From Steroidobacter agaridevorans (lineage in GTDB: Bacteria > Pseudomonadota > Gammaproteobacteria > Steroidobacterales > Steroidobacteraceae), in the NCBI RefSeq assembly GCF_009932555.1, contig NZ_BLJO01000007.1:376930-440929 (forward strand): a stretch of 64,000 bases of DNA, written 5' to 3'. The notes under the pieces are model-generated. The model did not search any database and was not told the DNA's origin. It saw only the letters and a list, made by a program, of their open reading frames with translations. The position numbers were made by a program, and so were the translations under genes. Below, piece by piece: positions 4,516-32,779 of this stretch. The number at the start of each line of letters is the position of its first letter. Positions within the stretch are counted from its first letter, which is position 1.

Positions 4516-6228
4516 TCAGCTCTTATGCGTCTGCTCCTGCGCCCACCGCCGCATCCGACGCTCCAGAATATCCAGCGGCATTGGCCCGCTGCCGATCAAG
4601 GCATCGTGAAACTCACGAATGTCGAAGCGCGAGCCGAGCGCCTGCTCCGCTTCGCTGCGGATCTTTCTGATCCTGATCTCGCCGATCTTGTACGCCAGCG
4701 CCTGGCCCGGCCACGAGATGTAACGTTGGGTCTCCCCTGCCACGGAGCCGGGCGACAACGCGGTGTTGTCTTGCAGACAAGCGGCCGCCTGCTCGGCGGA
4801 CCAATGTTTCCAATGGATGCCGACATCCATCACCAGTCGGCAGGCGCGCCACATCTCCATCGAGAGCTGATTTACGCGTTCCTCCCGCGTCCGATAGATG
4901 CCCATCTCCGCGCCCAGACGCTCCGCATACAGCGCCCAGCCTTCGACGAAGGCCGTCACGTCATCCCGACGCCGGAACTTCGGCAGATCGAGCCGCTCTT
5001 GCCCTAGCGCAATCTGCAGATGATGTCCGGGGATGCCTTCGTGCAGCATCCAGGCCGTCAGTCCGTACACCGAACTGCGATACGCCTGACTGCCCACGAC
5101 GACGGCGCCAGCGACGCCCTTCTCCGGATCGCCCAGGTTGTAGGCGCCCGAAGCCGCTTCCAGTTCCGGAGGCTTGATACGAACGCCCCAAGGCAATCTC
5201 GGCAGCGTCTTGAACCAGCGCGGCAGCTCGAGCGCCACTCGATTGCCGATGCCCGCGGCTTTGTCGACATAGCTCTCGATGTCGGGGACATGGCTGCCGG
5301 GCCGACGGTTCAAGTCGTCCAGATACTCTCGCAATGTTCCCTGGAAGCCGTCGGCTCGCTGCGCACTGAGCATCTCGGCTCGAATACGCTCGACCTCCGC
5401 CGCGCCGATGTCGAACACTTCGTCCGGCGTCAGATCGGTCGTCGTCGAGCGCCGCACCGCGAACTCGTAGTACGCCTTGCCATCAGGAAGCGTCGACGCG
5501 CCGAGCTTGGGGCGCGCCTTCGGCAAATATTCCTTCTCGAAGAAAGTCACGAGCGCGCGCTGAGCCGGCTTGACTTCGCGCTCTACGACAGCAAGCGCCA
5601 GCGCTCGCAGGTCCTGCTGTCGTTTTTCTGGAATGGTTGCCGGCAATGACGCCAGCGGCTTCAACAGCGGACTGTCCGCAGCCGGTTGATCGGCCGCGAC
5701 TTTCATCGAGCGCAGTGCAGATTCCGCAGTGGAACGCGGTTGTGTGAACCGGGTTGCGATTCCCCGCCGCATGTTCGCAATCTGCCCTTCATAGTAGGAC
5801 GGCAGCGCTTGCAGCCTCGCGATCCAGGCCATCGCGTCGGCATCATTCGCGATTCGCGTGACCTGCGCCGCATACGTGCCGGCGTTGAAGAAACCGTCGC
5901 CGCTATCGAAAGGAATGCGGTCTTCGTCGAAGCGCGCGCCGTCGATCAGAACCTGCAGCCGCCACTGGAGCAACTCGCGGGTCAGTGCATCTTCTCCGCT
6001 CGGCGCAGCGACTTTCCCCAGTCGATCGCGCAGCTCGCTGTATTTTTCCTGCCGCTGCCTGGCGGCTGCGAGACTCACATCCGGCCAGCCCGGGCCTTCA
6101 TTGGTATCAGTGGCGCGCGCCAGGGTTTCGTATTCGGCGATGACATCGTTCAACGTGTCTGCAACGCCGGCTGCAGCTGGCATCGCAGCCAGCAGCGCGC
6201 ACGCAATCAGACGTCGTAACGGCGTCAT
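4516..6228 (-). CDS. DUF885 family peptidase-like protein (exported), first copy
   Basis: A 570-aa DUF885 protein, a family of putative zinc peptidases/dipeptidases distantly related to M32/M2-like enzymes. A signal peptide (IACALLAAMPAAAGVA) puts it in the periplasm. The family metal-binding motif HEGIPGHH is at residues 396-403, followed by FVEGWALYAERLG with the third-ligand Glu, and the typical C-terminal ISWPGQALAYKIGE and RFDIREFHDALIGSGPMPL. The ATG at 6228 overlaps the permease stop in a TGATG, so translation is probably coupled. It is the third gene of the deaminase-permease-DUF885 unit under the palindrome at 8620, and a second DUF885 gene (16038-17810) lies in the epimerase operon. 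Inferred role: cleaving Hyp/Pro-containing peptides. Confidence 0.88.
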   Translation of the reverse strand: MTPLRRLIACALLAAMPAAAGVADTLNDVIAEYETLARATDTNEGPGWPDVSLAAARQRQEKYSELRDRLGKVAAPSGEDALTRELLQWRLQVLIDGARFDEDRIPFDSGDGFFNAGTYAAQVTRIANDADAMAWIARLQALPSYYEGQIANMRRGIATRFTQPRSTAESALRSMKVAADQPAADSPLLKPLASLPATIPEKRQQDLRALALAVVEREVKPAQRALVTFFEKEYLPKARPKLGASTLPDGKAYYEFAVRRSTTTDLTPDEVFDIGAAEVERIRAEMLSAQRADGFQGTLREYLDDLNRRPGSHVPDIESYVDKAAGIGNRVALELPRWFKTLPRLPWGVRIKPPELEAASGAYNLGDPEKGVAGAVVVGSQAYRSSVYGLTAWMLHEGIPGHHLQIALGQERLDLPKFRRRDDVTAFVEGWALYAERLGAEMGIYRTREERVNQLSMEMWRACRLVMDVGIHWKHWSAEQAAACLQDNTALSPGSVAGETQRYISWPGQALAYKIGEIRIRKIRSEAEQALGSRFDIREFHDALIGSGPMPLDILERRMRRWAQEQTHKS

Positions 6229-7640
6229 CAGGCAACCGCGACGACTCGCGCCCGCAACCGCTGCAACAGCAGATAGATCGCGAAACCCACCGCGTTCCAT
6301 AACAGGAAGCGTTGAATCGTCAGCCCCGGCAAGCTCAGGAACAGATAGAAGCAGCCGAGGATCGCCAGCATGCCGACCACATTCGGCGCAGGACAGCGGA
6401 ACACGCGTGGCGCATCGGGCGCCGACTTACGCAACACCATCATCGACGCCGCGGTGGTCACGAACGCAAGCAGAGTGCCGGCGTTCGCCAGCTCGGCGAT
6501 CTCGTCGAGGCGGAAGAAGCCCGCCGTCAGTGCGACGAACACGCCGGTGACGGCCGTGATCAACACCGGCGTGCCGGTGCGAGGTGAGACCGTGCTCAAA
6601 CGTTTCGGCAACAGCCCGTCGCGCGCCATCACGAAGAAGATGCGGCTCTGACCATACATCATCACCAGGATCACCGATGGCAGGGCGATGAGCGCCGCCA
6701 ATCCCACCGCCCACGCCGCGACCGGATGCTGGAGTGTTCGCAAGACGTACGCGAGTGGCTCGGCCGACGCGGCCAATTCGGTGTGCTTGACCGCGCCCAC
6801 GGCGGACACCGCGACCAGCATGTAGATCAGCGTGCAGACAGCCATCGAGCCGATGATGCCGATCTTCAGATCGCGGCCCGGATTCTTCGCCTCTTCCGCC
6901 GAGGTGGCGACCGCATCGAATCCGTAGAAAGCAAAGAACACGATTGCGGCGGCCGCCATCACCCCGCGCTTCGCGCCGCCGTCTTCATGGCTCGCGAATC
7001 CATACGGCATGAATGGCTCGAGATTGCCGGCGTTGAACGCGGGCAAAGCGAGCGCGACGAAGCAAGCCAACGCAGTGAGCTTGATGACGACCAGGACAAT
7101 ATTGAATGTCGCACTCTCGCGCGTGCCGGCGATCAGCATGCCGGCGATGATCGTCGCGACCAGCACGGCAGGCAGATTGATGATGCCTCCGCCATGCGGC
7201 CCGCTTAGTAGGGCCTCGGGTAGATTGATGCCGGCAGCTTTCAGCCATCCCACGAGATAAGCCGACCATCCGACAGCGACGGTGCTGCAGGCGAGCGAAT
7301 ACTCGAGGATCAAGCTCCAGCCGACGATCCAGGCCAGGCGCTCGCCGATGGCGACGTATGTATATGTATAAGCGCCGCCCGCGGCGGGCATGAGCGTCGC
7401 CACTTCGGCATAGGCAAGCGCGGCGCAAGCACAGACTGCGCCGGCGATTGCGAATGCGAAGATCACTGCGGGGCCGGCGCGATCGGCGCCTACACCGGTC
7501 AGGGTGTAGATGCCGGTGCCGACGATGGCGCCGACACCGAGTGCGATCAGGTGCGGCCAGCTCAAGGTCTTTGCGAGCCGCTTGCCCTCGTCTATTCCGT
7601 GCGAGTGCTGTAGCGACTTGCGCTGGCCGAATATTCCCAT
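6228..7640 (-). CDS. APC superfamily amino acid permease
   Basis: A 470-aa inner-membrane secondary transporter with about 12 membrane segments. The first segment carries the APC substrate-binding signature GVGAIVGTGIYTLTG (about residues 35-50), and the third shows AALAYAEVATLMPAAGGAYTY-type residues of the cationic amino acid/YhdG-like branch. It starts 42 bp after the DHDPS-family deaminase gene and ends in a TGATG overlap with a DUF885 peptidase, so it is the middle gene of a three-gene operon. In this context hydroxyproline, proline or another amino acid freed by the peptidases is the likely cargo; specificity is inferred from neighbours only. Confidence 0.88.
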   Translation of the reverse strand: MGIFGQRKSLQHSHGIDEGKRLAKTLSWPHLIALGVGAIVGTGIYTLTGVGADRAGPAVIFAFAIAGAVCACAALAYAEVATLMPAAGGAYTYTYVAIGERLAWIVGWSLILEYSLACSTVAVGWSAYLVGWLKAAGINLPEALLSGPHGGGIINLPAVLVATIIAGMLIAGTRESATFNIVLVVIKLTALACFVALALPAFNAGNLEPFMPYGFASHEDGGAKRGVMAAAAIVFFAFYGFDAVATSAEEAKNPGRDLKIGIIGSMAVCTLIYMLVAVSAVGAVKHTELAASAEPLAYVLRTLQHPVAAWAVGLAALIALPSVILVMMYGQSRIFFVMARDGLLPKRLSTVSPRTGTPVLITAVTGVFVALTAGFFRLDEIAELANAGTLLAFVTTAASMMVLRKSAPDAPRVFRCPAPNVVGMLAILGCFYLFLSLPGLTIQRFLLWNAVGFAIYLLLQRLRARVVAVA

Positions 7641-7682
7641 GCTCCGATTCCCCTCAAGTCGATGCCGGGCGCTATCAACGGC

Positions 7683-8594
7683 TCAGGCGGCCGATGCACG
7701 CAATGTGGGCCGGGTCGCGGCCGCGCGTTCGACCATTGCGGTCACTTCACGCCGCCGCTCACCAGCCAACGGCAAGCGTGGCGGGCGCACTCGTTCCGAG
7801 CCGCGTCCCATGATGGTTTCCGCCAGCTTGATCGATTGCACCAGGTCGTGCTCGGCATCCAGATGCAACAACGGCATGAACCAGCGATAGATGGCGCGCG
7901 CCCGGTCCAGATCGCCCGCGTTCACCGCCTCGATCAACTGAGTCGACTCGCGCGGGAATGCGCTCGTGAGGCCGGACACCCAACCCGTCGCGCCCAGCAG
8001 CAAGCCTTCCAGCGCAACGTCGTCCAGACCGGCCATCAGCGTGTAACGATCGCCGAACGCATTGATGAGATCGGTGAAGCGGCGCGGATCCGGCGCCGAT
8101 TCCTTGACCGCGACGATGTTCGGCACATCGCGCAGCCCTTCGAGCACCTTGACGCCGATGTTCACTCGATACGCCGGCGGATTGTTGTACAACATCACCG
8201 GCAGATCGGTCGCCTGCGCCACCGTGCGGAAGTGCATGATCAGCTCTTCTTCGGTCGGCACATAAACCATCGCGGGCAGCACCATCAGACCGTCGGCGCC
8301 CGCCTTCTTTGCATCTTTGGCAAAGGCCGCCGCGCGGCGCGTATCGAATTCGGAAACGCCGGTGACGACCGGCACACGGCCGGCGACGACTTCGACGATC
8401 GCGCGCAGCAGCGTTTGTTTCTCGGCGGGATCGAGCGAGTTGTTCTCGCCGCAGGTGCCCATCGCGATGATGCCGTGGACGCCGTCTTTGATCAGGTTGT
8501 CGATGACCCGCTGGCTCTGCGCCAGATCGATGGACAGATCCTCCTTGAACTGAGTGGTCGCCGCCGGATAAACGCCCTGCCAAGTCGGTGTCAT
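7683..8594 (-). CDS. DHDPS/NAL-family lyase, probable 1-pyrroline-4-hydroxy-2-carboxylate deaminase
   Basis: Class I aldolase-type (beta/alpha)8 enzyme of 303 aa. The Schiff-base lysine is K164 (VAVKESAPDP), the catalytic tyrosine Y136 (LPVMLYNNPPAY), and the GTCGENNSL loop near residue 47 replaces the GTTGE loop of DapA. This is not expected to be lysine biosynthesis: the gene faces a FAD amino acid dehydrogenase across a shared 72-bp promoter and sits in the same island as a 4-hydroxyproline epimerase, the arrangement of D-hydroxyproline catabolism, where a DHDPS-family deaminase converts the pyrroline to 2-oxoglutarate semialdehyde. The ATG at 8594 has a GAGG upstream and lies just after the operator at 8620. 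Activity is inferred from context plus family. Confidence 0.8.
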   Translation of the reverse strand: MTPTWQGVYPAATTQFKEDLSIDLAQSQRVIDNLIKDGVHGIIAMGTCGENNSLDPAEKQTLLRAIVEVVAGRVPVVTGVSEFDTRRAAAFAKDAKKAGADGLMVLPAMVYVPTEEELIMHFRTVAQATDLPVMLYNNPPAYRVNIGVKVLEGLRDVPNIVAVKESAPDPRRFTDLINAFGDRYTLMAGLDDVALEGLLLGATGWVSGLTSAFPRESTQLIEAVNAGDLDRARAIYRWFMPLLHLDAEHDLVQSIKLAETIMGRGSERVRPPRLPLAGERRREVTAMVERAAATRPTLRASAA

Positions 8595-8619
8595 GATAGC
8601 CTCGTCTACTGGAGCTTTA

Positions 8620-8634
8620 AGTATATCGTATACT
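8620..8634. promoter_or_regulatory. Palindromic operator, copy A, in divergent promoter
   Basis: AGTATATCGTATACT, a perfect inverted repeat (AGTATA-TCG-TATACT) lying in the 72-bp gap between the divergent deaminase and FAD dehydrogenase genes. Each strand offers a TATACT -10-like hexamer, so one site could control both directions. Its reverse complement differs by one base from the site at 17835-17849. No cognate regulator gene is visible in the window. Confidence 0.7.
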
Positions 8635-8666
8635 ATCCGCCCATCGCCAGTGTAATCTGCAGGTCT

Positions 8667-9896
8667 ATGCAACGGGCAGTAGTTTTAGGTGGCGGCGTCG
8701 TCGGTCTGAGCATCGCGGCCGGTCTGCAACGCGTGGGCGTCGAGGTTACTGTATTCGATACAGCGCCTGCAGCCGGTGCTGCCTCATGGGGAAACGCCGG
8801 ACATATCGCAATCGAGCAAGTCGAGCCGCTGGCCTCGTGGCCGGTGTTGCGCTCCGGCCCTCGCCGATTGTTCAGTCGAGGCGGCGCGCTCGGCCTGCCG
8901 CCCTCTCAGATCAAACGTTGGTTGCCGTTTGCTCTGCGAATGGCAAGTGCCGCAGGACGAGTCGACCACGGACGCGAGGCGCTTCGCTCGCTGCTCACAA
9001 ACGCGCTCCCTGCGTGGAAATCTTTGACCGAACAGCTCGGCGTACCCGGCCTGGTGCGCGAGACCGGACATTTCGTCGTGTGGGAAACGCCAGTGAGCGC
9101 CGCCGACGGACTCGCGGCGTGGCGCTCCGCTGATATAGGCAATGCTCGTTTTCACGAATGCGACGCCGATGAGATGCGCCTGCTTGCGGGTCTAGTTAAG
9201 CAAGCGCCCGCCGGGGCGATTCGATTCGAGAACACGGGACAGATCGCGGATCTGCCTAAGCTGGCCGATGTGCTACGAGGTTTCATCACAGCGCGCGGCG
9301 GGCGCATCGTGAATGCCAAAGCACGCGCCGTTGTACATCGCGACCGATCGGTCAGCGTGACATTGGATGACGGCAGCTCAGTCGAATCTGATTTCGCAGT
9401 GATCGCAGCAGGTGTTCGCTCACGCGAATTGATCGAACCCTACTGCAGCCCCGTGCCGATCATTGCCGAGCGTGGCTATCACCTGCAGATGACCGAGCAT
9501 GGCTGGCCCGATCTGCCGCCGGTGGTGTTCGAAGATCGTTCCATGATCGTCACACGCTTTGAGTCGGGCCTGCGGGCAGCGAGTTTCGTGGAATTCAGCG
9601 ACATCGACGCGCCGCCCGATGAGCGCAAGTGGCAACGTCTGCGCAGTCACGTCGCTGCACTCGGCCTGCCCTGCAACGCGCCGACTCGTCAGTGGATGGG
9701 CGCGCGTCCGACGTTGCCGGATTATCTTCCTGCAATCGGTCGGCTGCCGCACGCACCCAACATTCTGTACGGATTCGGTCACCAACATCTCGGCCTCACG
9801 CTCGCGGCCATCACTGGCGAACTGATCGCGCAACTCGCGACGAACTCGCCGACGGCCGTGAGCCTGAAGCCTTTCGATCTACAACGTTTCTCTTAA
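8667..9896 (+). CDS. FAD-dependent oxidoreductase, probable D-hydroxyproline dehydrogenase
   Basis: A 409-aa DAO-family flavoenzyme. The dinucleotide-binding motif VVLGGGVVGLSIA is at residues 5-17, followed by the flavin-contact segment GAASWGNAGHIA seen in D-amino acid and D-hydroxyproline dehydrogenases, and the C-terminal WMGARPTLPDYLPAIG with LYGFGHQHLGLTLA that closes the FAD site. No signal peptide, so cytoplasmic or membrane-face. The ATG at 8667 was chosen because the fold begins directly after it. It is divergent from the deaminase gene and 9 bp upstream of the GH127 gene. In the pathway it would oxidise cis-4-hydroxy-D-proline, the epimerase product, to the pyrroline used by the deaminase. 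Specificity is inferred from the cluster. Confidence 0.82.
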   Translation: MQRAVVLGGGVVGLSIAAGLQRVGVEVTVFDTAPAAGAASWGNAGHIAIEQVEPLASWPVLRSGPRRLFSRGGALGLPPSQIKRWLPFALRMASAAGRVDHGREALRSLLTNALPAWKSLTEQLGVPGLVRETGHFVVWETPVSAADGLAAWRSADIGNARFHECDADEMRLLAGLVKQAPAGAIRFENTGQIADLPKLADVLRGFITARGGRIVNAKARAVVHRDRSVSVTLDDGSSVESDFAVIAAGVRSRELIEPYCSPVPIIAERGYHLQMTEHGWPDLPPVVFEDRSMIVTRFESGLRAASFVEFSDIDAPPDERKWQRLRSHVAALGLPCNAPTRQWMGARPTLPDYLPAIGRLPHAPNILYGFGHQHLGLTLAAITGELIAQLATNSPTAVSLKPFDLQRFS

Positions 9897-9905
9897 GGAG
9901 CACCG

Positions 9906-12290
9906 ATGACTCGACCTCCGCTGATCACCGATCGTCGCGCACTGTTGAAGGGCGCCGCGGCCGGTGCGCTCTGCGCCGGATTGCCTTGGAGCGCCGCTCT
10001 GGCAAGCACAGGAACGCTGCCGGGAACTGCGAAATCGCTGTCGCTCAGCGACGTGCGCTTGTTGCCCTCGCCGTTCGCCGATGCGGTCGAAGCGAATCGC
10101 AAATATCTGCTGGCGCTGGAGCCGGATCGCCTGCTCCACAACTTCCGCAAGTTCGCCGGGCTGACGCCGAAGGGTGAAGTCTATGGCGGCTGGGAAGCAG
10201 ACACGATTGCCGGCCACAGCCTCGGTCACTATCTCACTGCACTGGCGTTGATTTATGCGCAAACGGGCGAGCCTCAAGCCAAGCAGCGCGCCGAGTACAT
10301 CGTTGCGGAGCTGGCCGAAGCTCAGGCCAAGCAAGGCGACGGCTACGTTGCCGGCTTCACCCGCAAGCGCAAGGACGGCACCATCGTCGACGGCAAGGAA
10401 ATCTTCCCCGAGATCATGCGCGGCGAGATCCGTTCGGCCGGCTTCGATCTGAATGGCTGCTGGGTACCGCTCTACAACTGGCACAAGTTGTTCGCCGGCC
10501 TGATGGACGTGGACACCTACTGCGGGGGCAACAAGCGCGCGATCGAGGTCGCCGTCGGTCTCGGCGGTTACATCGAGAAGGTCTTCAACGCGCTGAATGA
10601 CGAACAGGTGCAGACCGTGCTCGACTGCGAGCACGGCGGCATCAACGAGAGCTTTGCCGAGCTCTACACACGCACCAACGACCGTCGCTGGCTCGTGCTC
10701 GCGGAGCGTCTCTATCACAAGCGCATCCTCGATCCTCTGACGGCCGAACGCGACGAGCTCGCCCAGCGCCATGCCAACACGCAGATCCCCAAACTGATCG
10801 GTCTCGCGCGTTTGCACGAGATTACCGGCAAGTCGGCGCAGGCCGTCGCGCCTCGCTTCTTCTGGAAGACCGTCACGACCGATCACAGCTACGTGATCGG
10901 CGGCAACTCGGATCGGGAATATTTCTCCGAGCCGCGCACGGTTGCACGACACATCACCGAGCAGACCTGCGAGGCGTGCAACACGTACAACATGCTCAAG
11001 CTGACGCGCCATCTGTTTGCGTGGCAGCCATCGGGCGCACTGTTCGACTACTACGAGCGCGCGCACCTCAATCACATTCTCGCGCATCAGGATCCGGCGA
11101 CCGGCATGTTCACCTACATGACGCCGCTGATGTCAGGCATCAAGCGCGAGTTCTCCTCGCCCACCGACAGCTTCTGGTGTTGCGTCGGCTCCGGCATGGA
11201 AAGTCATTCCAAACACGGCGATTCGATCTGGTGGGAAAGCGGCGACACGCTGGTGGTGAACTTGTTCATTCCTTCGCGCGCAACCTGGAAGGCACGCAAC
11301 GCGCAGCTGGAAATGACGACCCAGTATCCGTACGAGAACACGGTCAATCTCAAAGTGGCTTCATTGCCGAAGTCGCAGCCGTTCGCTGTCGCGCTTCGCG
11401 TGCCGGGCTGGGCGAAGGATGCGCAATTGACGGTCAACGGCAAGAAGGCCGAAACGACCAAGGACGCCGGCTACCTCATCGTTCGCCGCAAATGGCGCGA
11501 GGGAGATACAGTGGCGTTCACATTACCGCTGGAGCTCCGCCTCGAATCCACGCCAGGCGATGACAAGACGATCGCGGTGTTGCGCGGGCCGATGGTGCTC
11601 GCAGCCGACCTCGGCCCCGCGGATCAGCCGTTCGAAGCTGCAGCACCCGCACTCGTCGGCGCAGACTTGCTCGCAGACTTCGAGCCGGTCGAGCCCCAGC
11701 AAGCGGTGTATCGAGCGAGCACGATTGCCCGCCCGGCCGCGCTCACGTTCTCACCGTTCTATAAGAACTATCACCGGCGCAGCGCGGTTTATTTCCGGCG
11801 CTTCACCGATGCCGAGTGGGTCAACGAAGAAAAGGCGTTCAAGGCCGAGCAGGCTCGACAGAAAGAGCTCGCCGCCCGCTCCGTCGACGTGATGCATCTG
11901 GGTGAGATGCAGCCCGAGCGCGATCATCAGCTGACCTCGGATATTTCCTATCCCGTGGTCTATCGCGGCCGCCAGGGACGTGACGCCCGCACCGGCGGCT
12001 TCTTCGCGTTCCGCATGAAGGTCAAGCCGGGCCCGCTGATTCTGCAGGCGACTTACTGGGCCGACGAGCGCGCACGCAAATTCCACATCCTGGTCGAAGG
12101 CCAGCGGATCGCGACGCAGGCGCTGCGTCCGGACAAGCCCGTGTTCTTCGATGTGGACTACGAGATTCCGGAGGCGCTGACCAAGGGCAAGGACAGTGTG
12201 CTGGTGCGCTTCGAGCCCGAGCCCGGCAACACCGCCGGCCCGGTGTTCGGCTGCCGCATCTACACCAAGAACGCCAACATCACGGCTTGA
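9906..12290 (+). CDS. GH127/DUF1680 beta-L-arabinofuranosidase, Tat-exported
   Basis: A 794-aa glycoside hydrolase of the DUF1680 group (GH127 or the related GH146). A twin-arginine signal (DRRALLKGAAAGALCAG) starts at about residue 9. The (alpha/alpha)6 barrel keeps the cysteine/zinc active site described for Bifidobacterium HypBA1: E356-x-C358 in CEACNTYNMLKL and the C425-C426 pair in SFWCCVGSGMES. HypBA1 removes beta-L-arabinofuranose from arabinosyl-hydroxyproline of extensins. The C-terminal third holds beta-sandwich domains and a DUF4986-like tail. It is transcribed with the D-hydroxyproline dehydrogenase gene (9 bp gap, good Shine-Dalgarno AAGGAG), which directly links arabinose removal with hydroxyproline oxidation. 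Other beta-arabinofuranosides remain possible as substrate. Confidence 0.9.
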   Translation: MTRPPLITDRRALLKGAAAGALCAGLPWSAALASTGTLPGTAKSLSLSDVRLLPSPFADAVEANRKYLLALEPDRLLHNFRKFAGLTPKGEVYGGWEADTIAGHSLGHYLTALALIYAQTGEPQAKQRAEYIVAELAEAQAKQGDGYVAGFTRKRKDGTIVDGKEIFPEIMRGEIRSAGFDLNGCWVPLYNWHKLFAGLMDVDTYCGGNKRAIEVAVGLGGYIEKVFNALNDEQVQTVLDCEHGGINESFAELYTRTNDRRWLVLAERLYHKRILDPLTAERDELAQRHANTQIPKLIGLARLHEITGKSAQAVAPRFFWKTVTTDHSYVIGGNSDREYFSEPRTVARHITEQTCEACNTYNMLKLTRHLFAWQPSGALFDYYERAHLNHILAHQDPATGMFTYMTPLMSGIKREFSSPTDSFWCCVGSGMESHSKHGDSIWWESGDTLVVNLFIPSRATWKARNAQLEMTTQYPYENTVNLKVASLPKSQPFAVALRVPGWAKDAQLTVNGKKAETTKDAGYLIVRRKWREGDTVAFTLPLELRLESTPGDDKTIAVLRGPMVLAADLGPADQPFEAAAPALVGADLLADFEPVEPQQAVYRASTIARPAALTFSPFYKNYHRRSAVYFRRFTDAEWVNEEKAFKAEQARQKELAARSVDVMHLGEMQPERDHQLTSDISYPVVYRGRQGRDARTGGFFAFRMKVKPGPLILQATYWADERARKFHILVEGQRIATQALRPDKPVFFDVDYEIPEALTKGKDSVLVRFEPEPGNTAGPVFGCRIYTKNANITA

Positions 12291-12301
12291 TCGACTCGGT
12301 T

Positions 12302-12328
12302 CGGCGCGCTGAAGATCTCAGCGCGCCG
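12302..12328. terminator. Bidirectional hairpin between convergent genes
   Basis: An 11-bp perfect stem CGGCGCGCTGA / TCAGCGCGCCG with loop AGATC, placed between the converging GH127 gene (ends 12290) and the large unknown gene (ends 12355). There is no clear T-run on either side, so a Rho-independent role is likely but not proven. The right arm sequence is repeated directly at 12354-12366 over the stop codon of the minus-strand gene. Confidence 0.55.
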
Positions 12329-12354
12329 GCCACAACTGGACCGGCGCTTCGCTC

Positions 12355-15069
12355 TCAGCGCGCCGGCGTCAGCTGCACTGACGTTTCGCTCTTGCCGAGA
12401 GAGATCACATAGCGACCGCGGTGCTTGTTCAGCGTCGTGCTCGGCCGATAGCCGGCGCCTGACCTCGTGCTCTCAATCCGAAGCTGAGCCTTCGATGTGA
12501 ATTCATCGGCGGAATCCAGATACACGCTCACATTCCCGCTGTTGCGGTCATAGTCCAAGCGCGCGAACTTTCCTGCATCCAGCGTGAGCCACAGCCCAGC
12601 TTCCGCAAGAAACACCCGAGTGCGGAACCCATCACGCGGCACGAAGCTGACGATCGATCCCCGCTCTTGCGTCGATCCGCCGAAGCCGACATTGCCGAAC
12701 ACCGGATGCCGCGCCAGGTAGCTCCCGATGCCATAGGCGTAACCGTAGAACGCCGAGCCGTAGTCGCCGTTGTAGCCGTCGAACCGGAGCAGATCAGGAT
12801 TGGAATGAAACGCCGCCGAGCCGAAGCCTTCCTGATCGATGTTGGTCAGCGTGCCCATCAATCCGCCGTACGCCACGCGTAACAAATGAATGTCCCGCGG
12901 ATCGCGGCGGAAAGAATCGAGCAGCGGCAGCGCGTTGTTCGCCGAACCGTAATGATGCAACTGGCGCTCGAGCTGAGCCGTCTTGCCGGCGTACATGAAA
13001 TCCCAATAGCGCCGCGCGTTGCCGTTGTAGCCCCAGCTCGGAAGGGTCGGGTCGTAGCCCAGGATCACCTCGCGAGTCAGGTCGGCCTTCGCCGTGTTGC
13101 CAAAGTAGCGCATCCACGCATACACCTCGGGCTGACCGGTCGAGTCCCACGGCATTTCGCTGCCGAACGGATACTCCTCGGCCGCCCAATGATCGGCACG
13201 CTGACGCATGGCCTGCTCGAGCTGGGACGCTTCGGCCTTCATGCCCTCGTCCTGCAGATCACGCAGGATCTCGATGAACACCTCGCCTTCCATCTGACCG
13301 AACTTCGCGTACTCGGGCGCAAGCTTCGGCATCGCGAGCGCCGTCTGATAAGCGCGATCGAGATACCAACGCCAATCGTGCGCCTTCACCAGCCCTTCGT
13401 GATAACGAGCGAGGCGATACAACACCCAATGCGCGGCGGCGACGTGCACGTAGTTGAATGAGCGCACGACGGAATCGGCTTGTGACTTTCGCCAGGCCGA
13501 CCATTTCGTCCAGTCGATCGCGGGGTCATAGCGCACGCCCTGCGGAGCCTGCGGCTCGTAGTAGAACAGGCTCTTGCGGACGCCGAACTTCTCCGGCCCC
13601 TCATTGACCTGCAAACGACCATCCAGAGTCTGCGTGACGAAACGCTCGAACCTCTCGATCTCCGAGGCATTCGGTGCGCCGAGTTGTTTCATCACGAGCG
13701 CGAGCCAGGCGCCCGCACCACCCTCGTCGCTCAGCCCTGCCATCCACACTCTCTGATCCTGCAGCACGACGGCGTTGCGCTCGCGATCGTAAGTCATGAA
13801 CGACGGCCCACGCTTGAACGGATCCGACGGATCGTCGTACCAGTGCTTCGTGGCAATGAACCGGCCCAGGTCGTCGAGGACCGTGGCGCTGGGTTTGGTC
13901 ACGAAGTAATGAACCGCCTGCCGCGTGCCGTCCGCGTAGGTGATGGTCAGGCGCGACCGGCCCCATTGCTTGCCAGTCACCCGATATCTGGACCAGCCTT
14001 GCACGCCATCAGCAGCCGCGATTTCCAGCGCACCGGCCGGTTGAGCGACGACCGAACTAATTGCCTGCCGCGACGAAAGCCACAGATCGCCCGTCAGATC
14101 CGTCGGCAGCACGTAACCAGGGATACCCACCGCCACCGGGCGGGCGTTCGCGGACAGCGTGTGCTCGATATCTCGAATCGTTTTCGACACCAGGAATTGC
14201 ACGCCGAACCGACGCGTCTCGCCGCGGCGAAGCGTGACAGTCGTCGGCTCATTCCATTGCTCGGCGCCCTTCCATTCGCGCTCGGCGAAGCCGCGACTTG
14301 CCGCCATCCAGGTGTAAAAGCCTTCGAATGTCTGGCCTCGCTGAGTCGCATCGTTGAGCAGCAGCGCCTTGCCGCTCTCGTCTTTCTTGTCGGCGATGGG
14401 TCGATACGCCTCGAACGGCGTGCCGTTTTCACCCGCGACAATCAGCGCTGGGCCTTGGCCATTGAGTCGCGTGACCTGCAGGTATCCAGCATCGAGACCG
14501 ATGTAGGGATCCGCGAAGCTGGCCTCGGTGTGCGCCTCCGCCAGCGAGCGCTTCGACAGCACGTTGTCGAACACCATCGCGAGCCCGACGCCGCCGAGCT
14601 CGATGTCCCGTTGACCGGCATTGGTCAGCTCGAAGCGCAACGAGAGATGGCCGTTGTCACCGATCTGCCAACGGCGCACGACGCGCAGGCCCAGCTCGCG
14701 TGGCACTCCCATCGATATTTCAGCGGCAGCGAGAGTCTTCGCATCGCGCGGCAGCTCACGCGCCGGTTCGCGTCGAAAGGCCGTCGAATAATCCTGCCAC
14801 TGAGATTCGCCTGCCGTGCGCAGACGCAGGTCGATATCACCGAGCTGGTAGTAGCCGTCGCCGCTGCGAGTCGATTGCAGCTTCGAGGGAGCAAAGTCGA
14901 AGCCATCGCCTTGCTTCGGCTTGAGCGACACCAGCGTCTGCGACGGACCGTCGAGTACGACGTCGAAGTCGCGGCTCTGCAAGGTAAGCGCCGTGCTTGC
15001 CATCGCCAACGGGTGAACGAACAACCACACCGCACCGACGCGCAGCGCGGCGCTCACGACATTCCTCAT
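12355..15069 (-). CDS. Large exported protein, DUF5695-like, candidate glycosidase
   Basis: A 904-aa protein with a signal peptide (first about 25 residues, ending AMASTALT). The N-terminal half is beta-rich (residues 28-380), with a galactose-mutarotase-like start (FDVVLDGPSQTLVSLKPKQG); the C-terminal half is helical (about 400-750) with TKHWYDDPSDPFKRGPSF and WMRYFGNTAKADLTREVI, suggestive of an (alpha/alpha)6 toroid, then a short beta tail. This layout resembles exported polysaccharide-active enzymes, and I think it matches DUF5695, but cannot confirm this. It starts 3 bp after the 4-hydroxyproline epimerase stop and is the last gene of the DUF885-epimerase unit, which suggests it acts on the same glycoprotein substrate. 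No activity can be assigned. Confidence 0.7.
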   Translation of the reverse strand: MRNVVSAALRVGAVWLFVHPLAMASTALTLQSRDFDVVLDGPSQTLVSLKPKQGDGFDFAPSKLQSTRSGDGYYQLGDIDLRLRTAGESQWQDYSTAFRREPARELPRDAKTLAAAEISMGVPRELGLRVVRRWQIGDNGHLSLRFELTNAGQRDIELGGVGLAMVFDNVLSKRSLAEAHTEASFADPYIGLDAGYLQVTRLNGQGPALIVAGENGTPFEAYRPIADKKDESGKALLLNDATQRGQTFEGFYTWMAASRGFAEREWKGAEQWNEPTTVTLRRGETRRFGVQFLVSKTIRDIEHTLSANARPVAVGIPGYVLPTDLTGDLWLSSRQAISSVVAQPAGALEIAAADGVQGWSRYRVTGKQWGRSRLTITYADGTRQAVHYFVTKPSATVLDDLGRFIATKHWYDDPSDPFKRGPSFMTYDRERNAVVLQDQRVWMAGLSDEGGAGAWLALVMKQLGAPNASEIERFERFVTQTLDGRLQVNEGPEKFGVRKSLFYYEPQAPQGVRYDPAIDWTKWSAWRKSQADSVVRSFNYVHVAAAHWVLYRLARYHEGLVKAHDWRWYLDRAYQTALAMPKLAPEYAKFGQMEGEVFIEILRDLQDEGMKAEASQLEQAMRQRADHWAAEEYPFGSEMPWDSTGQPEVYAWMRYFGNTAKADLTREVILGYDPTLPSWGYNGNARRYWDFMYAGKTAQLERQLHHYGSANNALPLLDSFRRDPRDIHLLRVAYGGLMGTLTNIDQEGFGSAAFHSNPDLLRFDGYNGDYGSAFYGYAYGIGSYLARHPVFGNVGFGGSTQERGSIVSFVPRDGFRTRVFLAEAGLWLTLDAGKFARLDYDRNSGNVSVYLDSADEFTSKAQLRIESTRSGAGYRPSTTLNKHRGRYVISLGKSETSVQLTPAR

Positions 15070-15072
15070 CGC

Positions 15073-16026
15073 TCAGCCTCGCATGGCATCCATATTTTTA
15101 TCGTCGCGGATGCCCCAGCAGAATGGGTCTTTCGGATCGAGCAGCAACTTCGCATCGGCGGTCACGTGCGCCGTGCCCATGATGGTCGGCGCAATCGTTC
15201 CCTTGGCGCGATCTATCCAGCGATAGCGCGCCCTGAACACACTGCCGAGCACACTCTCTTGGGTCCACTCCTCGGCTTCCTGGAGCTTGCCATCGGCGGC
15301 GAGACACGCGAGCTTGGCGCTCGTGCCCGTGCCACAGGGAGAGCGGTCATACGCTTTGCCGGGACAGAGCACAAAATTCCGACTGCGCGCGGTCGGCGTC
15401 GCGCCGAGCAACTCGACGTGATCGATCTCGGGATAGCCCTGCGCGTTCACCGCCTGACGAATGCGCCACGACAGATCGGTGAGCGACTCGACATTCGTCA
15501 GCTGGATGGGAATGCGCTCCTGCTCGACCAGGTAGAACCAGTTGCCGCCCCAAGCCACGTCGCCGGTCACCGGGCCGACGCCGGGAACATCGACCGTCAC
15601 GGCGTGCGCCTTGCGATAACTTGGAACATTCGCAACGGCGACCGATCCATCGGGCAGCAATTGAGCTTCGACGACGCCGACGGGCGTATCGATCTTCACC
15701 GTGCCCGGCTTCAACACGCCCAGGTACGCCAACGACACGATCACACCGATGGTGCCGTGACCGCACATGCCCAGGTAGCCGACGTTGTTGAAGAAGATCA
15801 CGCCGATGTCGCACTCCTCTCGATGAGGCTTGCACAACAGCGCGCCGACGACCGTGTCACTGCCACGCGGCTCGTTGACGATGGCGGAACGGAAGGCGTC
15901 GAAGTTCTCGCGAAAGCGCCGCAAGCGCTGCTCGAGCGGCCCTTCGCCCAGGTCGGGACCACCTTCGAGCACGAGCCGCGTCGGTTCGCCACCGGTGTGA
16001 GAATCCAGGATTCGGATGCTATCCAT
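15073..16026 (-). CDS. 4-hydroxyproline 2-epimerase (proline racemase family)
   Basis: A 317-aa cytoplasmic enzyme that interconverts trans-4-hydroxy-L-proline and cis-4-hydroxy-D-proline without cofactor. Both catalytic cysteines are present: C88 in GMCGHGTIG and C231 in SPCGTGTSAK, which separates it from trans-3-hydroxyproline dehydratases that lack the first. The N-terminus IRILDSHTGGEPTRLV is characteristic. The ATG at 16026 was chosen over a TTG five codons upstream because it aligns with the family start. It is 11 bp after the DUF885 gene and 3 bp before the next gene, hence a tight operon. It provides the D-isomer for the FAD dehydrogenase at 8667-9896. This is the strongest marker of hydroxyproline catabolism here. 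Confidence 0.92.
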   Translation of the reverse strand: MDSIRILDSHTGGEPTRLVLEGGPDLGEGPLEQRLRRFRENFDAFRSAIVNEPRGSDTVVGALLCKPHREECDIGVIFFNNVGYLGMCGHGTIGVIVSLAYLGVLKPGTVKIDTPVGVVEAQLLPDGSVAVANVPSYRKAHAVTVDVPGVGPVTGDVAWGGNWFYLVEQERIPIQLTNVESLTDLSWRIRQAVNAQGYPEIDHVELLGATPTARSRNFVLCPGKAYDRSPCGTGTSAKLACLAADGKLQEAEEWTQESVLGSVFRARYRWIDRAKGTIAPTIMGTAHVTADAKLLLDPKDPFCWGIRDDKNMDAMRG

Positions 16027-16037
16027 AGGTGCGTCGA

Positions 16038-17810
16038 TCAATTGCTGTGATCCGCGGGATCGCGCGACGGCGTCGACGGATTCTCACCGCCATCGGCGAT
16101 GAACTGAGCCATGCGCTGCTCCAGCACCGGCAGCGGCACTGCGCCGAGCGCGAGAATCGCGTCGTGGAACTTGCGCTGATCGAACTTCGGACCGAGCGCC
16201 TGCTCCGCTTCCCGACGGTGCCGACGGATCTGCAACTCGCCGAGCTTGTAAGCGACCGCCTGACCCGGCCAGGCGATGTACCGATCGACTTCGGTGGTGA
16301 TCTCGTGCGTCGACAGCGCGACGTTGTCCTTCATGTATTGAAGCGCCTGATCGCGGCTCCAACCATAGTGATGAATACCGGTATCGACGACCAGGCGCGC
16401 GGCGCGCCACATCTCGTACGTGAGCTGACCGAACTCTTCGTACGGCGTCTCGTAGATGCCCATCACGCGGCCCAGCCATTCGGTGTACAGGCCCCAACCT
16501 TCGCCGTAGCCCGAGAAATAAACATCGTTGCGGAACTTCGGCCGTTCCGGCGCTTCCAGCGCCAGTGCTGCCTGGAAGCTGTGGCCGGGCGTGCACTCAT
16601 GCAGCACCAGCGACGGCAGCGTATAGAGCGGCCGCGCCGGCAGGTTATATGTATTGAACAGGCAGCTCTCCAATCCGCCGCGGCCGCCGGTATAGATCGG
16701 CGCCAACGCATCGGGCACCGGCAGAATGCCGTGCCGGAAACGCGGCAGCGTGCCGATCGTGTCCTTGAGCTTCAGATCGGACTTCTTGACGATGTAGGCG
16801 GCTTCGGCAATCAGTTGATGCGGCGTCTTCGCATAGAACTGCGGATCGGTGCGCAGGAATTGATAGAACTCGGGCAACGTGCCCTTGAAGCCGGCCTTTT
16901 GCATGGTGGTCTGCATCTCTTCCTTGATGCGCGCCACCTCGCCCAATCCAATCTGGTGGATCTGCTCGGCCGTCAGCTCGAGCGTCGTGAACTTCTCGAT
17001 GCGCGCTTGATAGAACTTCGCGCCATCCGGCAACGTCGACGCGGAGATCGAGGTGCGCGCCTTGGCCAGATATTCTTTGCGAATGAATTCCAGCAGCTTC
17101 GTGTACGCCGGCGCGACCTGCTTGGCGATCACGTCCCGAGCTTCACTGCGAATACGTTCCTGATCGCCTGCCGCGATGTTCGTCGGCATCTGCGTGAACG
17201 GCAGGAACAGCGGGTTCGTATCGTCGGTGGCGAGATACGGCTCGATGGTCTTGTCGCGCCCCATGACCGAAACTTTCGGCACGGTGAAGCCGCGTTTCAG
17301 CCCAGCACGCATGTTGGCGATGTGCTCGTCGAAGTAGCGAGGCACGTCGGCCAGGCGGCCGAGATAGCGTCGATAGGCTTCCTGATCGGGGAAACCTTCG
17401 CGCGGCGTGAATTCGGTCCAGAAGAACGAGTCGGCGTTGAACGGCGTCTGGTAGGTCTTGAAGCGCAGATCGGAGATGCGCTCTTCGAGAATCGTGCGGA
17501 ATATTTCCGCGTTGACTTTATCTTCGCCTGTGAGCGACGCCGTGCCGATCCGATTCACATCCGCGAGCACCGCCTGCAGATGCGCCAGCCTGGCTTGCTG
17601 ACTGGCTTCGTCGACGCGCGCCAGATGATCCGATTCTTCGCCGGGACGCTCGTCGTCCGGCTCCTCGGCCATCTCGTTCTTCCACCATTCCCATTCGGCC
17701 TGGTAGATCGCGTTGAGCTTGGGCACGGCGTCGGACGGGCCCGATTGAGCCAACACCCCGGGCGCGCCAAGGAACCAGAGGGCTCCGGCCATCGCAACCA
17801 TTCCGCGCAT
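16038..17810 (-). CDS. DUF885 family peptidase-like protein (exported), second copy
   Basis: A 590-aa paralogue of the protein at 4516-6228, with a signal peptide (MVAMAGALWFLGAPGVLAQ). The metal motif reads HECTPGH at residues 404-410, followed by GYGEGWGLYTEWLG with the third-ligand Glu; the C-terminus shows IAWPGQAVAYKLGE and KFDQRKFHDAILALGAVPL. The start was set at the ATG at 17810, preceded by GAGAGGAG; a longer reading would run through the operator at 17835. It is the first gene of the DUF885-epimerase-unknown operon, which places a putative periplasmic peptidase directly with hydroxyproline epimerisation. Peptide specificity is unknown. Confidence 0.88.
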   Translation of the reverse strand: MRGMVAMAGALWFLGAPGVLAQSGPSDAVPKLNAIYQAEWEWWKNEMAEEPDDERPGEESDHLARVDEASQQARLAHLQAVLADVNRIGTASLTGEDKVNAEIFRTILEERISDLRFKTYQTPFNADSFFWTEFTPREGFPDQEAYRRYLGRLADVPRYFDEHIANMRAGLKRGFTVPKVSVMGRDKTIEPYLATDDTNPLFLPFTQMPTNIAAGDQERIRSEARDVIAKQVAPAYTKLLEFIRKEYLAKARTSISASTLPDGAKFYQARIEKFTTLELTAEQIHQIGLGEVARIKEEMQTTMQKAGFKGTLPEFYQFLRTDPQFYAKTPHQLIAEAAYIVKKSDLKLKDTIGTLPRFRHGILPVPDALAPIYTGGRGGLESCLFNTYNLPARPLYTLPSLVLHECTPGHSFQAALALEAPERPKFRNDVYFSGYGEGWGLYTEWLGRVMGIYETPYEEFGQLTYEMWRAARLVVDTGIHHYGWSRDQALQYMKDNVALSTHEITTEVDRYIAWPGQAVAYKLGELQIRRHRREAEQALGPKFDQRKFHDAILALGAVPLPVLEQRMAQFIADGGENPSTPSRDPADHSN

Positions 17811-17894: not shown

Positions 17895-18884
17895 CTAACT
17901 GGCCTCGGCGAGCAGGAAGTAGTCGCGCACCGAGCGGGCAATCTCGGCGATCACGCGCTCGCGCTGTTCCATCGGTTTGTCGCTCTCTTTGATGAAGACG
18001 GCGATGACGATCTGGCTCTTGCCATCGGGCAAGGTCATGACGCCGACATCGTTCACGGTGCCGCCGATGGTGCCGGTCTTGTGAGCGATGACCGTGCCTG
18101 CGGGCATCCGACCCGGCAGCCGGCCGGCGCCGGTGTGGCAACGCTGCATGATGTCGATCAGGACTTTGGTGCTCGACACGCTCAACGCCTGCTGATTGAA
18201 GATCTTGGTCAGCAACTGCCCCATTGCGGCCGGCGTCGACGTGTCGCGAACATCCTTATCGAACGCCGCATTCGGATGGTTGCCGCGCTCCTCGAGTTGC
18301 GGATCCTGCTTCACCGCTTCTTGAAGCGCCTCATTGAACGGTCCGGGCGGCAAATTGAAGAACTCACGCAATATGCCTGCAGTGTCGCGATCGATGCGTT
18401 GCTCTTCGACGCCCTGCTTTCGCACCCACGCAGTCACCGCTTGCGGACCGCCAGCGAGCCGTGTCAGTACATCGGTTGCGGTGTTGTCGCTCAATGTGAG
18501 CATCAGCTCCAGCAAGTTGTGTACTGACAGACTGATGCCCGGATGAATCGCCAGACTCGCGATGCCGTCCGACGGCACGATGTCGTTCGGTTGCACGGCG
18601 ACCAGTTGATCGAGCTGCAACCTGCCGGCATCCACGCTGGCGAGAATGGCGCCGGCGACGGCGATCTTGAAGGTGCTCGCCATCGGGAATCGCTCGCCCG
18701 CGTTCACCATGATCCGCTCGCCTTTGCCATCGAGCTGCCACGCTGCGACACCGACCTTGCCGCCGATCGGGGCGGTCAATCTCGCGATCTCCGCTTCCAG
18801 CACCGGCGCGGCGAACACTGTTTGCAGCGATGACATGACACACAGCATGAGGGCCAGCTGCCAGCGACGCAATCCGTGTTTCAT
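17895..18884 (-). CDS. bla: Class A beta-lactamase-like serine hydrolase with altered omega region
   Basis: A 329-aa exported protein (signal peptide ending VFAAPVLE) of the penicillin-binding fold. The nucleophile motif is S70-T-F-K73, SDN is at residues 132-134, and HKTGTIGG at 268-275, so three class A elements are intact. The omega-loop segment is not normal: after QRIDRD (about 162-167) there is an insertion of about 30 residues before RDTSTPAAM, and no clear Glu166-x-x-x-Asn170 is visible. Deacylation may therefore be poor or use another residue. It starts with GAGGACGAAACAA ahead of the ATG and lies 12 bp downstream of an S12 hydrolase gene. It could be a real resistance enzyme or a peptide/peptidoglycan hydrolase. 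Confidence 0.8.
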   Translation of the reverse strand: MKHGLRRWQLALMLCVMSSLQTVFAAPVLEAEIARLTAPIGGKVGVAAWQLDGKGERIMVNAGERFPMASTFKIAVAGAILASVDAGRLQLDQLVAVQPNDIVPSDGIASLAIHPGISLSVHNLLELMLTLSDNTATDVLTRLAGGPQAVTAWVRKQGVEEQRIDRDTAGILREFFNLPPGPFNEALQEAVKQDPQLEERGNHPNAAFDKDVRDTSTPAAMGQLLTKIFNQQALSVSSTKVLIDIMQRCHTGAGRLPGRMPAGTVIAHKTGTIGGTVNDVGVMTLPDGKSQIVIAVFIKESDKPMEQRERVIAEIARSVRDYFLLAEAS

Positions 18885-18896
18885 TTGTTTCGTCCT

Positions 18897-20618: not shown

Positions 20619-20629
20619 TTGTCTGCTCC

Positions 20630-22783: not shown

Positions 22784-22815
22784 GACTCCCGGATTGTTGT
22801 ATCCCCCGCGAGCCA

Positions 22816-22843
22816 GTCTAGGGAGGCCCCTATTCCTGTCAAG
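22816..22843 (-). promoter_or_regulatory. Sigma-70-like promoter of the S9 peptidase operon
   Basis: On the minus strand TTGACA (22838-22843) is separated by 16 bp from TAGACT (22816-22821), about 33 bp ahead of the S9 peptidase start. The perfect -35 and reasonable -10 make it the best-looking promoter in the window. A small palindrome touches its -35. Confidence 0.55.
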
Positions 22844-22855
22844 AGAATTTTCTCC
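22844..22855. promoter_or_regulatory. Small palindrome next to the S9 promoter
   Basis: GAGAATTTTCTC, arms GAGAA/TTCTC with a 2-bp spacer, directly abutting the -35 box. It could be the operator of the adjacent XRE-cupin regulator; this is a guess from position only. Confidence 0.3.
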
Positions 22856-22927
22856 ATACAGGATAAACTACTCCGAATGGAGACGACGCAGGCGAAATTC
22901 TCCCGCGCATGCCGGCGGCGGAAAAAG

Positions 22928-23668
22928 TTACGCAGCGCCGGCGCGACGCTTGGGTTTCGCCGAGGACTTCTTGTGCGTGGAAGATTTGAGCGCTTTCGGC
23001 TTTTCGGCGTTGCCAGCGACGGCGAGCTTGGTAGTCTTGGGCGCTTCGCCCCGCGCCTGAGAAATCAATTCCTGCTGGAGGTTGGCCGCGGCCGACGCGC
23101 AGACGGCGAGGATCGTCGCTTCCTCGCAGCCGTCGGCAACGAGGTAGCCGTGGCCCATCTCGCTGTCCAGATAGACGTACTCACCCGCACGCAACGTAAT
23201 GGGATCGTAGAACTCCGAGTGCACCTCGATGGCGCCTTCGAGCACGTACACGAATTCCTCGCCGGCATGACGCAGCAGCTCACCGAATTCCTGCATGGTC
23301 TTGGAGCGCACGCGGCTGATGATCGGAATCATGATCTTGCCGCGCAGCTCGGTGCACAGATAGCGATAGTCGTAGTTCTGGGTCTCTACGTTCAGGCCAT
23401 CGGCAGCGGTTTTACCGACGCTTCGTCGCGCCATGCCCTTGGGCTGCGCGGTGACGGCCGACGAATTCAAAAAGTCCGACAGGCCCATGCCGAGCTTGTC
23501 GCTCAGGTCCACCAGCTTGTCGTAGGTCAGCGTCAAATGACCCTTCTCCACCTTGGCCAGCGTCGACAGCGGAATGGCGACGCGCTGACTCATCTCAGCG
23601 AGCGTCCAGCCGTTGCTGTTGCGGATGTGCCTGACGATATTTCCGAGGCTGGGCTTGGCCTTTACCAT
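22928..23668 (-). CDS. XRE-family regulator with C-terminal cupin domain
   Basis: A 246-aa cytoplasmic transcription factor. A helix-turn-helix of the lambda-repressor type spans residues 8-65 (WTLAEMSQRVAIPLSTLAKVEKG). After a linker, a cupin-2 domain (about 110-195) contains HAGEEFVYVLEGAIEV and RAGEYVYLDSEMGHGY, the usual small-molecule sensor of HipB/SutR/PuuR-like regulators. A Lys/Ala-rich tail (about 205-246) could contact DNA. The ATG at 23668 was preferred to a TTG three codons upstream. It is divergent from the branched-chain aminotransferase gene (65-bp gap), the most likely target, and upstream of the S9 operon. XRE-cupin regulators commonly govern amino acid or polyamine genes. 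Confidence 0.85.
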   Translation of the reverse strand: MVKAKPSLGNIVRHIRNSNGWTLAEMSQRVAIPLSTLAKVEKGHLTLTYDKLVDLSDKLGMGLSDFLNSSAVTAQPKGMARRSVGKTAADGLNVETQNYDYRYLCTELRGKIMIPIISRVRSKTMQEFGELLRHAGEEFVYVLEGAIEVHSEFYDPITLRAGEYVYLDSEMGHGYLVADGCEEATILAVCASAAANLQQELISQARGEAPKTTKLAVAGNAEKPKALKSSTHKKSSAKPKRRAGAA

Positions 23669-32774: not shown

Positions 32775-32779
32775 GTGCT

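Follow-up and report, generated by a model that had tools for sequence, protein, structure and literature searches.

The window analyzed here, a stretch of 64,000 nucleotides from the 8.0-Mb genome of Steroidobacter agaridevorans (contig C7:376930-440929), carries a gene cluster in which a glycosidase with an export-type N-terminus lies among genes for a predicted pathway of 4-hydroxyproline (Hyp) catabolism. A preliminary description made from the sequence alone had read positions 4516-17810 as a locus for the degradation of arabinosylated Hyp from extensins. All the genes that it named are present with their key residues intact, as judged by Pfam and NCBIfam scans and a check of individual residues; however, the block conserved in relatives is larger, since it runs on along the minus strand (17895-23668) through genes for a class A beta-lactamase, a hydrolase of family S12, a peptidase of family S9 and a helix-turn-helix (HTH)-cupin regulator. 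The predicted export of the proteins is a reading of their N-termini by eye. The features are as follows:

4516..6228, minus strand: DUF885b, a putative exported zinc metallopeptidase with the motif HEGIPGH (PF05960, 462 bits), overlapping the APC gene by one base.
6228..7640, minus strand: APC-family amino-acid permease, the proposed Hyp/Pro importer (PF13520, 190 bits).
7683..8594, minus strand: dihydrodipicolinate synthase (DHDPS)-family enzyme, proposed as a pyrroline-4-hydroxy-2-carboxylate deaminase (PF00701, 199 bits).
8667..9896, plus strand: FAD/DAO D-amino-acid dehydrogenase-like enzyme, proposed as a cis-4-hydroxy-D-proline dehydrogenase (PF01266, 151 bits; NCBIfam D-amino acid dehydrogenase, below cut-off).
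9906..12290, plus strand: GH146 beta-L-arabinofuranosidase with an N-terminus of the twin-arginine translocation (Tat) type (PF07944, 421 bits, with PF20736 and DUF6805).
12355..15069, minus strand: DUF5695, a putative exported protein with a PL27-like fold, proposed to act on Hyp-rich glycoproteins as a glycan lyase or glycosidase (PF18951, 1211 bits).
15073..16026, minus strand: probable trans-4-hydroxy-L-proline 2-epimerase (PF05544, 319 bits; PDB 2azp (PA1268), E 6e-117).
16038..17810, minus strand: DUF885a, a putative exported zinc metallopeptidase with the motif HECTPGH (PF05960, 482 bits; nearest PDB 3o0y).
17895..18884, minus strand: class A beta-lactamase (NF033103, 236 bits, cut-off 200).
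18897..20618, minus strand: S12 beta-lactamase-like serine hydrolase, a possible peptidase (PF00144, 180 bits).
20630..22783, minus strand: S9 prolyl-oligopeptidase-family peptidase (PF00326, 126 bits).
22928..23668, minus strand: HTH-cupin regulator that may control the locus, encoded farthest upstream in the minus-strand block (PF07883 and PF01381, both above cut-off).

The GH146 gene starts 9 bases behind the FAD gene on the same strand, and a gap of 72 bases separates the latter from the divergent DHDPS-family gene. On the minus strand, 3 bases lie between the DUF5695 and epimerase genes and 11 between those of the epimerase and DUF885a. The epimerase, dehydrogenase and DHDPS-type deaminase genes are thereby linked within 7683-16026, as they are in two congeners. 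Both catalytic cysteines of the epimerase (C88 and C231) are present, the DHDPS-family enzyme keeps Y136 and K164, and both DUF885 proteins conserve HExxxGH; a literature search on DUF885 listed nothing useful.

While Pfam names the glycosidase GH127, the model concerned also covers GH146. Its nearest PDB match is 5opj (E 9e-143), followed by 8k7x (E 1e-52), while 3wkw scores E 4e-13; we take these to be BT0349 (GH146), Bll3HypBA1 (GH146) and the GH127 enzyme HypBA1, respectively. In a tree of 59 rows, which sampled the GH146s of 40 of the 80 loci described below, the window enzyme falls in a clade A (27 rows) that is sister to a Xanthomonadales group X (15 rows; support 99/97), with the paralogues and BT0349 outside both. 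These E-values and the tree led us to set aside the HypBA1-type GH127 identity given in the preliminary description. The zinc-site residues described for such enzymes as E-x-C and C-C (PMC10850190) are retained as E356-x-C358 and C425-C426. GH146 substrates include arabinan-derived glycans (BT0349), the Araf-beta-1,3 linkage of arabinogalactan-proteins (Bll3HypBA1; Araf, arabinofuranose) and Araf-beta-Hyp (XeHypBA1, Bll4HypBA1; PMC10850190). The group X loci of Xanthomonas contain a GH121 protein (best match the beta-L-arabinobiosidase 6m5a, E 8e-213), a GH43 protein of ~500-530 aa and mostly an S9 peptidase, and their order and protein lengths agree with the published XCV2724/2728/2729 locus and its adjoining prolyl oligopeptidase (PMC6085000). 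Because group X loci match this XeHypBA1-BA2-AA locus, the nearest characterized lineage appears to prefer Araf-beta-Hyp. Accordingly, on sequence grounds the window glycosidase is best called a GH146 of the group sister to the enzymes of the Xanthomonas hypBA loci, an assignment that suits the idea of an arabinosyl-Hyp (Ara-Hyp) substrate. Clustering with GH146 members of other specificity had been named in advance as evidence against that idea; the enzyme does formally cluster with GH146, but next to a lineage that, by its locus, has the expected preference.

The gene order is kept in two congeners (G115 and G106) as regulator, S9, S12, beta-lactamase, DUF885a, epimerase, DUF5695, GH146/FAD, DHDPS and APC, at 83-98% identity; the regulator copies, in the same place, are 95% (G115) and 87% (G106) identical. 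DUF885b adjoins the APC gene in G115; the G106 stretches examined contained no match to it. A third congener (G074) has a GH146 (88%) without linked Hyp genes, and its Hyp module lies with DUF885a on another contig. Beyond the genus, a contig scan with the GH146 of Stenotrophomonas (G313) as the query, a genome already known to carry DHDPS, DUF885 and APC-like genes, yielded 80 loci with flanks of up to 10 kb, 70 of them at least 20 kb long. Genes were called with a home-made caller that found only part of the window FAD gene; the counts over the 80 loci come from tblastn, independently of the caller. Window genes with matches in these loci are DUF885a (64), DUF5695 (40), DHDPS (30, of which 27 at 65-75% identity), FAD (30, at 46-62%), epimerase (26) and APC (25, of which 19 at 62-78%). 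Genes of the Sphingomonas/Caulobacter loci likewise recur, namely a DPP4-like S9 peptidase (40), an M24 prolidase (30), GH43 (30), a GntR/FCD regulator (28), a GH27 alpha-galactosidase (17) and GH2 (14); a POT peptide transporter is found in 11 loci, and a TonB receptor is also among the genes added. Thus, the comparison of gene order proposed in the preliminary description bears it out, with the same order in congeners and linkage across several genera. An LDH2-family gene, a possible pyrroline-2-carboxylate reductase (e.g., L112:12423-13454), lies near GH146 in 47 of the 80 loci and suggests proline recycling; none was seen beside the window GH146. One contig labelled Bacillus sp. 2B10 (L095) has a Sphingomonas-like version of the locus, and the label may reflect contamination.

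GH146 paralogues provide an internal control for this linkage. We collected 93 GH146 copies (E 1e-60 or better) from 53 genomes, comprising 7 from a genome search and those of 46 of the 80 loci (hand-chosen, with 34 left out). A Hyp-epimerase/proline-racemase-family gene lies within 50 kb of 30/40 clade-A copies and 13/13 Xanthomonadales copies, i.e., 43/53, as against 0/20 copies of 48-54% identity and 0/20 of 37-47%, i.e., 0/40. These identity classes were set after the positions were known, and the G074, G044 and G106 copies classed at 48-54% are labelled C in the tree; 13 weak racemase-family rows (E 2.8e-6 and worse, one over the Pfam cut-off) were left out, G161 having only such rows. 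The Fisher value of the contrast, which ignores relatedness, is 3e-17, and by simple arithmetic about one racemase-family gene per 4.5 Mb would give a chance expectation of ~2% per GH146 copy. Hyp genes were found in none of 11 annotated paralogue neighborhoods. Among six genomes with unlinked clade-A copies whose epimerase region was annotated, five have the Hyp epimerase (HypE), FAD, DHDPS and APC genes together, in two cases (G549, G561) on the same contig as GH146 at a distance of 101-122 kb; the sixth (G547) has an epimerase region with no DHDPS or APC gene in view, and its GH146 locus (L129) carries both. There are thus two modules, one with GH146 and one with the Hyp genes, which are joined in most cases but not in all. 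As homologues of the FAD and DHDPS-family enzymes travel with the Hyp epimerase even where GH146 is absent, their earlier assignment to the Hyp pathway is supported. A GH146 paralogue at G115:C9:1713511-1715412 contains an in-frame TAA and is possibly a pseudogene.

The Hyp function has, moreover, been joined to GH146 with different genes. The epimerase of the Sphingomonas locus L112 is of the PRK13971 type (540 bits, cut-off 376) and only 38% identical to that of the window, the nearest model of which is NF052296/PRK13970. Stenotrophomonas (G313) encodes a different dehydrogenase, made up of two FAD subunits and a 2Fe-2S protein, next to an aldehyde dehydrogenase (ALDH); the Xanthomonas loci match both of these FAD subunits and the ALDH. 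That a single GH146 lineage is accompanied by different sets of genes for the same function argues, at the level of sequence, for selection on the combination. These observations bear on the view that we are dealing with a plain catabolic cluster for free Hyp (or collagen peptides), with GH146 and DUF5695 as accidental neighbors. The five genomes with the Hyp genes together away from GH146 would fit it, as would the HypR regulon of Streptomyces coelicolor, which indicates that Hyp pathways need no adjoining arabinosidase (PMC6608401). However, the linkage of 43/53 against 0/40 extends over several genera and different epimerase and dehydrogenase types, and GH43, GH27 and GH121 join the same loci, such that we consider this view improbable. 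Since linkage is kept in several genera with the paralogues as a control, the core of the preliminary description, that one locus removes Hyp-linked arabinose and catabolizes Hyp, is supported.

The Xanthomonas loci connect this combination to a published question. In all 20 genomes listed under the genus to which Xanthomonas sp. GPE 39 belongs, GH146, GH121 and the epimerase lie in one region, with 27.6-39.1 kb between GH146 and the Hyp epimerase and 2.0-13.8 kb between GH146 and the GH121 match. Four annotated genomes (G521, G524, G572, G574) have the epimerase, two FAD subunits, DHDPS, ALDH, M24, DUF885, APC and S9 genes, along with those for a 785-789-aa protein, a TonB receptor, GH121 and GH43, and in three of the four also a second S9 and GH27; most genes between GH146 and the epimerase belong to this set, and the whole Hyp pathway is present. 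The Xanthomonas epimerase matches PDB 4juu (E 2e-165), which is listed as the X. campestris enzyme acting as a 4-Hyp epimerase (PMC4113996). The reason for the presence of the arabinosidases in X. euvesicatoria is raised as a question by Nakamura et al. (2018), given that this species is unable to use L-arabinose and that its deletion mutants stayed pathogenic (PMC6085000). From the gene content, we suggest that Hyp use may be the reason why Xanthomonas keeps these enzymes, which offers a testable answer to that published question; we found this answer in no paper of the open-licence literature.

Two further observations concern these superloci. The 785-789-aa protein, which has a Tat-type N-terminus (L154:9406-11763, minus strand; L157, L181, L184), is encoded upstream of the TonB receptor and GH121 in 4/4 superloci besides that of G576; the one copy scanned had no Pfam match, and its model, built from 4 sequences, is poor (pLDDT 45.9). 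The superlocus of G576 (L186-L189) is decaying, with transposase-like fragments, a partial GH121 match (residues 17-391 only) and no GH43 match. G576 is also the only one of the 20 genomes with DUF5695, which lies outside its GH146 locus, and we give this co-occurrence no weight as support for a replacement of GH121 by DUF5695.

Listed in the preliminary description as an exported unknown protein, the product of 12355..15069 does have an exported-type N-terminus but belongs to Pfam DUF5695, a name that a full-text search of the open-licence literature turned up in just one paper. In its predicted model, it shares a two-domain fold with PL27; the match to BACCELL_00875 (5nok/5no8) is at 16% identity, with the DUF5695 strands beyond residue 783 falling outside it. 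No GH121 or GH142 was among the matches listed in the fold search, which excludes nothing. Across the 80 loci, GH121 is present in 8, DUF5695 in 40 and both together in none; we nevertheless reject DUF5695 as a functional stand-in for GH121, given that this mutual exclusion follows taxonomy and that the fold is PL27-like. Rather, the model suggests that DUF5695 may be a PL27-like lyase or glycosidase of Hyp-rich glycoproteins, which provides the family with both a functional hypothesis and a fold relative.

Because DUF5695 resembles the PL27 lyase of the gum arabic arabinogalactan-protein, "extensin" is too narrow a name for the substrate, and the system may act on arabinogalactan-proteins as well as, or in place of, extensin. 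In the stronger form of this proposal, the main substrate would be an arabinogalactan-protein (or a mixed arabinogalactan-protein/extensin, e.g., the gum arabic glycoprotein) and not extensin; GH146 would take terminal beta-Araf or short Hyp-arabinosides, DUF5695 would act as a PL27-like lyase on rhamnose-glucuronic acid (Rha-GlcA) or related caps, and Hyp would still be consumed. We regard this as quite possible, if on balance doubtful. A shared fold is no proof of activity, and the GH27 alpha-galactosidases in 17 of the 80 loci would suit the galactose that is linked to serine in extensin. Furthermore, loci of the sister GH146 group also encode GH121 and GH43, enzymes whose counterparts in X. 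euvesicatoria are active on Ara3-Hyp and Ara4-Hyp (PMC6085000).

The arabinose side of the system raises yet another alternative, namely that of a locus for L-arabinose or pectin arabinan, with the DHDPS-family protein acting as an L-2-keto-3-deoxyarabonate dehydratase and the epimerase and FAD enzyme being unrelated. The DHDPS family does include such dehydratases, and BT0349, the nearest solved GH146, is from a rhamnogalacturonan I (RG-I) locus. However, BT0349 lies outside clades A and X, the FAD and DHDPS homologues accompany the Hyp epimerase even without GH146, and the genome has an arabinose-type locus elsewhere, making this alternative highly improbable. That locus, at C5:336-355 kb, encodes an IlvD/Edd-family dehydratase (L-arabinonate dehydratase being its third-best model, below cut-off), an AraD1-family protein (518 bits, cut-off 340) and an ALDH resembling alpha-ketoglutarate semialdehyde dehydrogenase (KGSADH). 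If alpha-ketoglutarate semialdehyde is a substrate of this ALDH, the routes from the arabinose and from the Hyp of Ara-Hyp would converge at that locus.

Taken together, the genes, their residues, the conserved linkage and the phylogeny make it likely that hydroxyproline-rich glycoproteins of plants or algae are utilized through this locus, for which the activities, localization, transport and dehydrogenase identity are predicted as follows. The exported GH146 would remove beta-L-arabinofuranose from hydroxyproline and the exported DUF5695 would remove or cleave another glycan of the same proteins, while exported peptidases (the two DUF885 metallopeptidases and probably the S9 and S12 proteins) would cut the exposed Pro/Hyp-rich peptides and the APC permease import the amino acid. 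In the cytoplasm, the epimerase would convert trans-4-hydroxy-L-proline to cis-4-hydroxy-D-proline, the FAD enzyme would oxidize the latter to pyrroline-4-hydroxy-2-carboxylate and the DHDPS-family deaminase would yield alpha-ketoglutarate semialdehyde, with an ALDH encoded elsewhere, perhaps that at C5:344.9 kb, finishing the pathway to alpha-ketoglutarate.

Several points weigh against this reading. The window epimerase scores under the NCBIfam equivalog cut-offs (408.3 vs 450, for NF052296, and 387.3 vs 442); hence, we call it epimerase-family and take its function from best matches and context. The FAD and DHDPS enzymes receive family-level names only, all below cut-offs. Among the accessory genes that the preliminary description proposed to seek, arabinose-type genes are found at C5, but there is no linked KGSADH: the window has no match to the ALDH of the Stenotrophomonas locus, and the C5 candidate is only 39% identical to it. 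In a scan of the window locus and genes adjoining it, the one part of this genome searched for them, neither GH121 nor GH43 was found, so that other enzymes would have to deal with longer arabinose chains. The XCV2724 sequence is not among the rows of the tree, and the XeHypBA1 lineage is recognized from gene order and protein lengths at the locus. The loci were sampled by GH146 similarity, with genera unevenly represented; 10/40 clade-A copies are without an epimerase-family gene within 50 kb, and one genome with such a copy (G545) has no racemase-family gene. GH43/GH27 homologues (31-35%) also lie beside 3/11 paralogue GH146s and are consequently not specific to Hyp-type loci; the Xanthomonas and window APC permeases share only 25-27% identity; and the DUF5695 fold points to arabinogalactan-protein as much as to extensin.

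Among known systems, the closest is that of X. euvesicatoria, XeHypBA1/XeHypBA2/XeHypAA (XCV2724/2729/2728), with published activity on Ara-Hyp, Ara3-Hyp and Ara4-Hyp (PMC6085000): its GH146 is, by locus, of the sister group, and the locus is of the same kind, with an S9 peptidase. The window differs in carrying DUF5695 and in lacking GH121 and GH43 among its scanned genes; that paper treats the glycosidases and a prolyl oligopeptidase, with "epimerase" and "proline racemase" absent from its main text. HypBA1/HypBA2/HypAA of Bifidobacterium longum likewise remove Hyp-linked beta-Araf, but there HypBA1 is an intracellular GH127 enzyme, and the system is described as an arabinose source (PMC6085000, PMC7263609). 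The bacterial trans-4-hydroxy-L-proline pathway, defined in an eLife genome-neighborhood study of the racemase superfamily (4HypE, D-amino-acid oxidase (DAAO)-type c4Hyp oxidase, DHDPS-type deaminase and KGSADH; PMC4113996), shares with the window the epimerase, FAD and DHDPS steps and the neighborhood logic, though not the linked KGSADH; its main text is without "arabinofuranosidase", "DUF1680", "extensin", "glycos" and "plant". In S. coelicolor, the GntR/FCD regulator HypR controls Hyp genes, as such regulators might in many of the related loci, and collagen and plant walls are discussed as Hyp sources (PMC6608401); unlike it, the candidate regulator of the window is of the HTH-cupin type, and no arabinosidase is seen in the accessible part of that account. 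In Latescibacteria, extensin sugars are said to be degraded by GH127, with arabinose listed as the product (PMC4454575).

In the open-licence literature searched, we found no paper describing Hyp-glycan removal and Hyp catabolism in one locus. The combination has apparently not been described as a system before, even as each enzyme class except DUF5695 was already known, and the Sphingomonas, Caulobacter and Xanthomonas clusters suggest that this mode of life on plant walls is common and has been overlooked. Plant-glycan catabolic loci are usually read as sugar harvesting, and here the prize may be the modified amino acid of the peptide itself. With modest confidence, we lean toward a joint claim: that loci for Hyp-rich glycoproteins, encoding deglycosylation, proteolysis and Hyp catabolism together, are widespread and convergently assembled in Pseudomonadota (and some Acidobacteriota); that the extensin arabinosidases of Xanthomonas serve Hyp rather than arabinose feeding; and that DUF5695 is a new PL27-related lyase or glycosidase family for Hyp-rich glycoproteins.

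Elsewhere in the window, a TonB-receptor plug domain lies at the left edge (3-869), an extracytoplasmic function (ECF)-type sigma factor containing DUF6596 is encoded at 31521-33203, and TonB-dependent receptors are encoded at 42152-44638 and 50671-53676.

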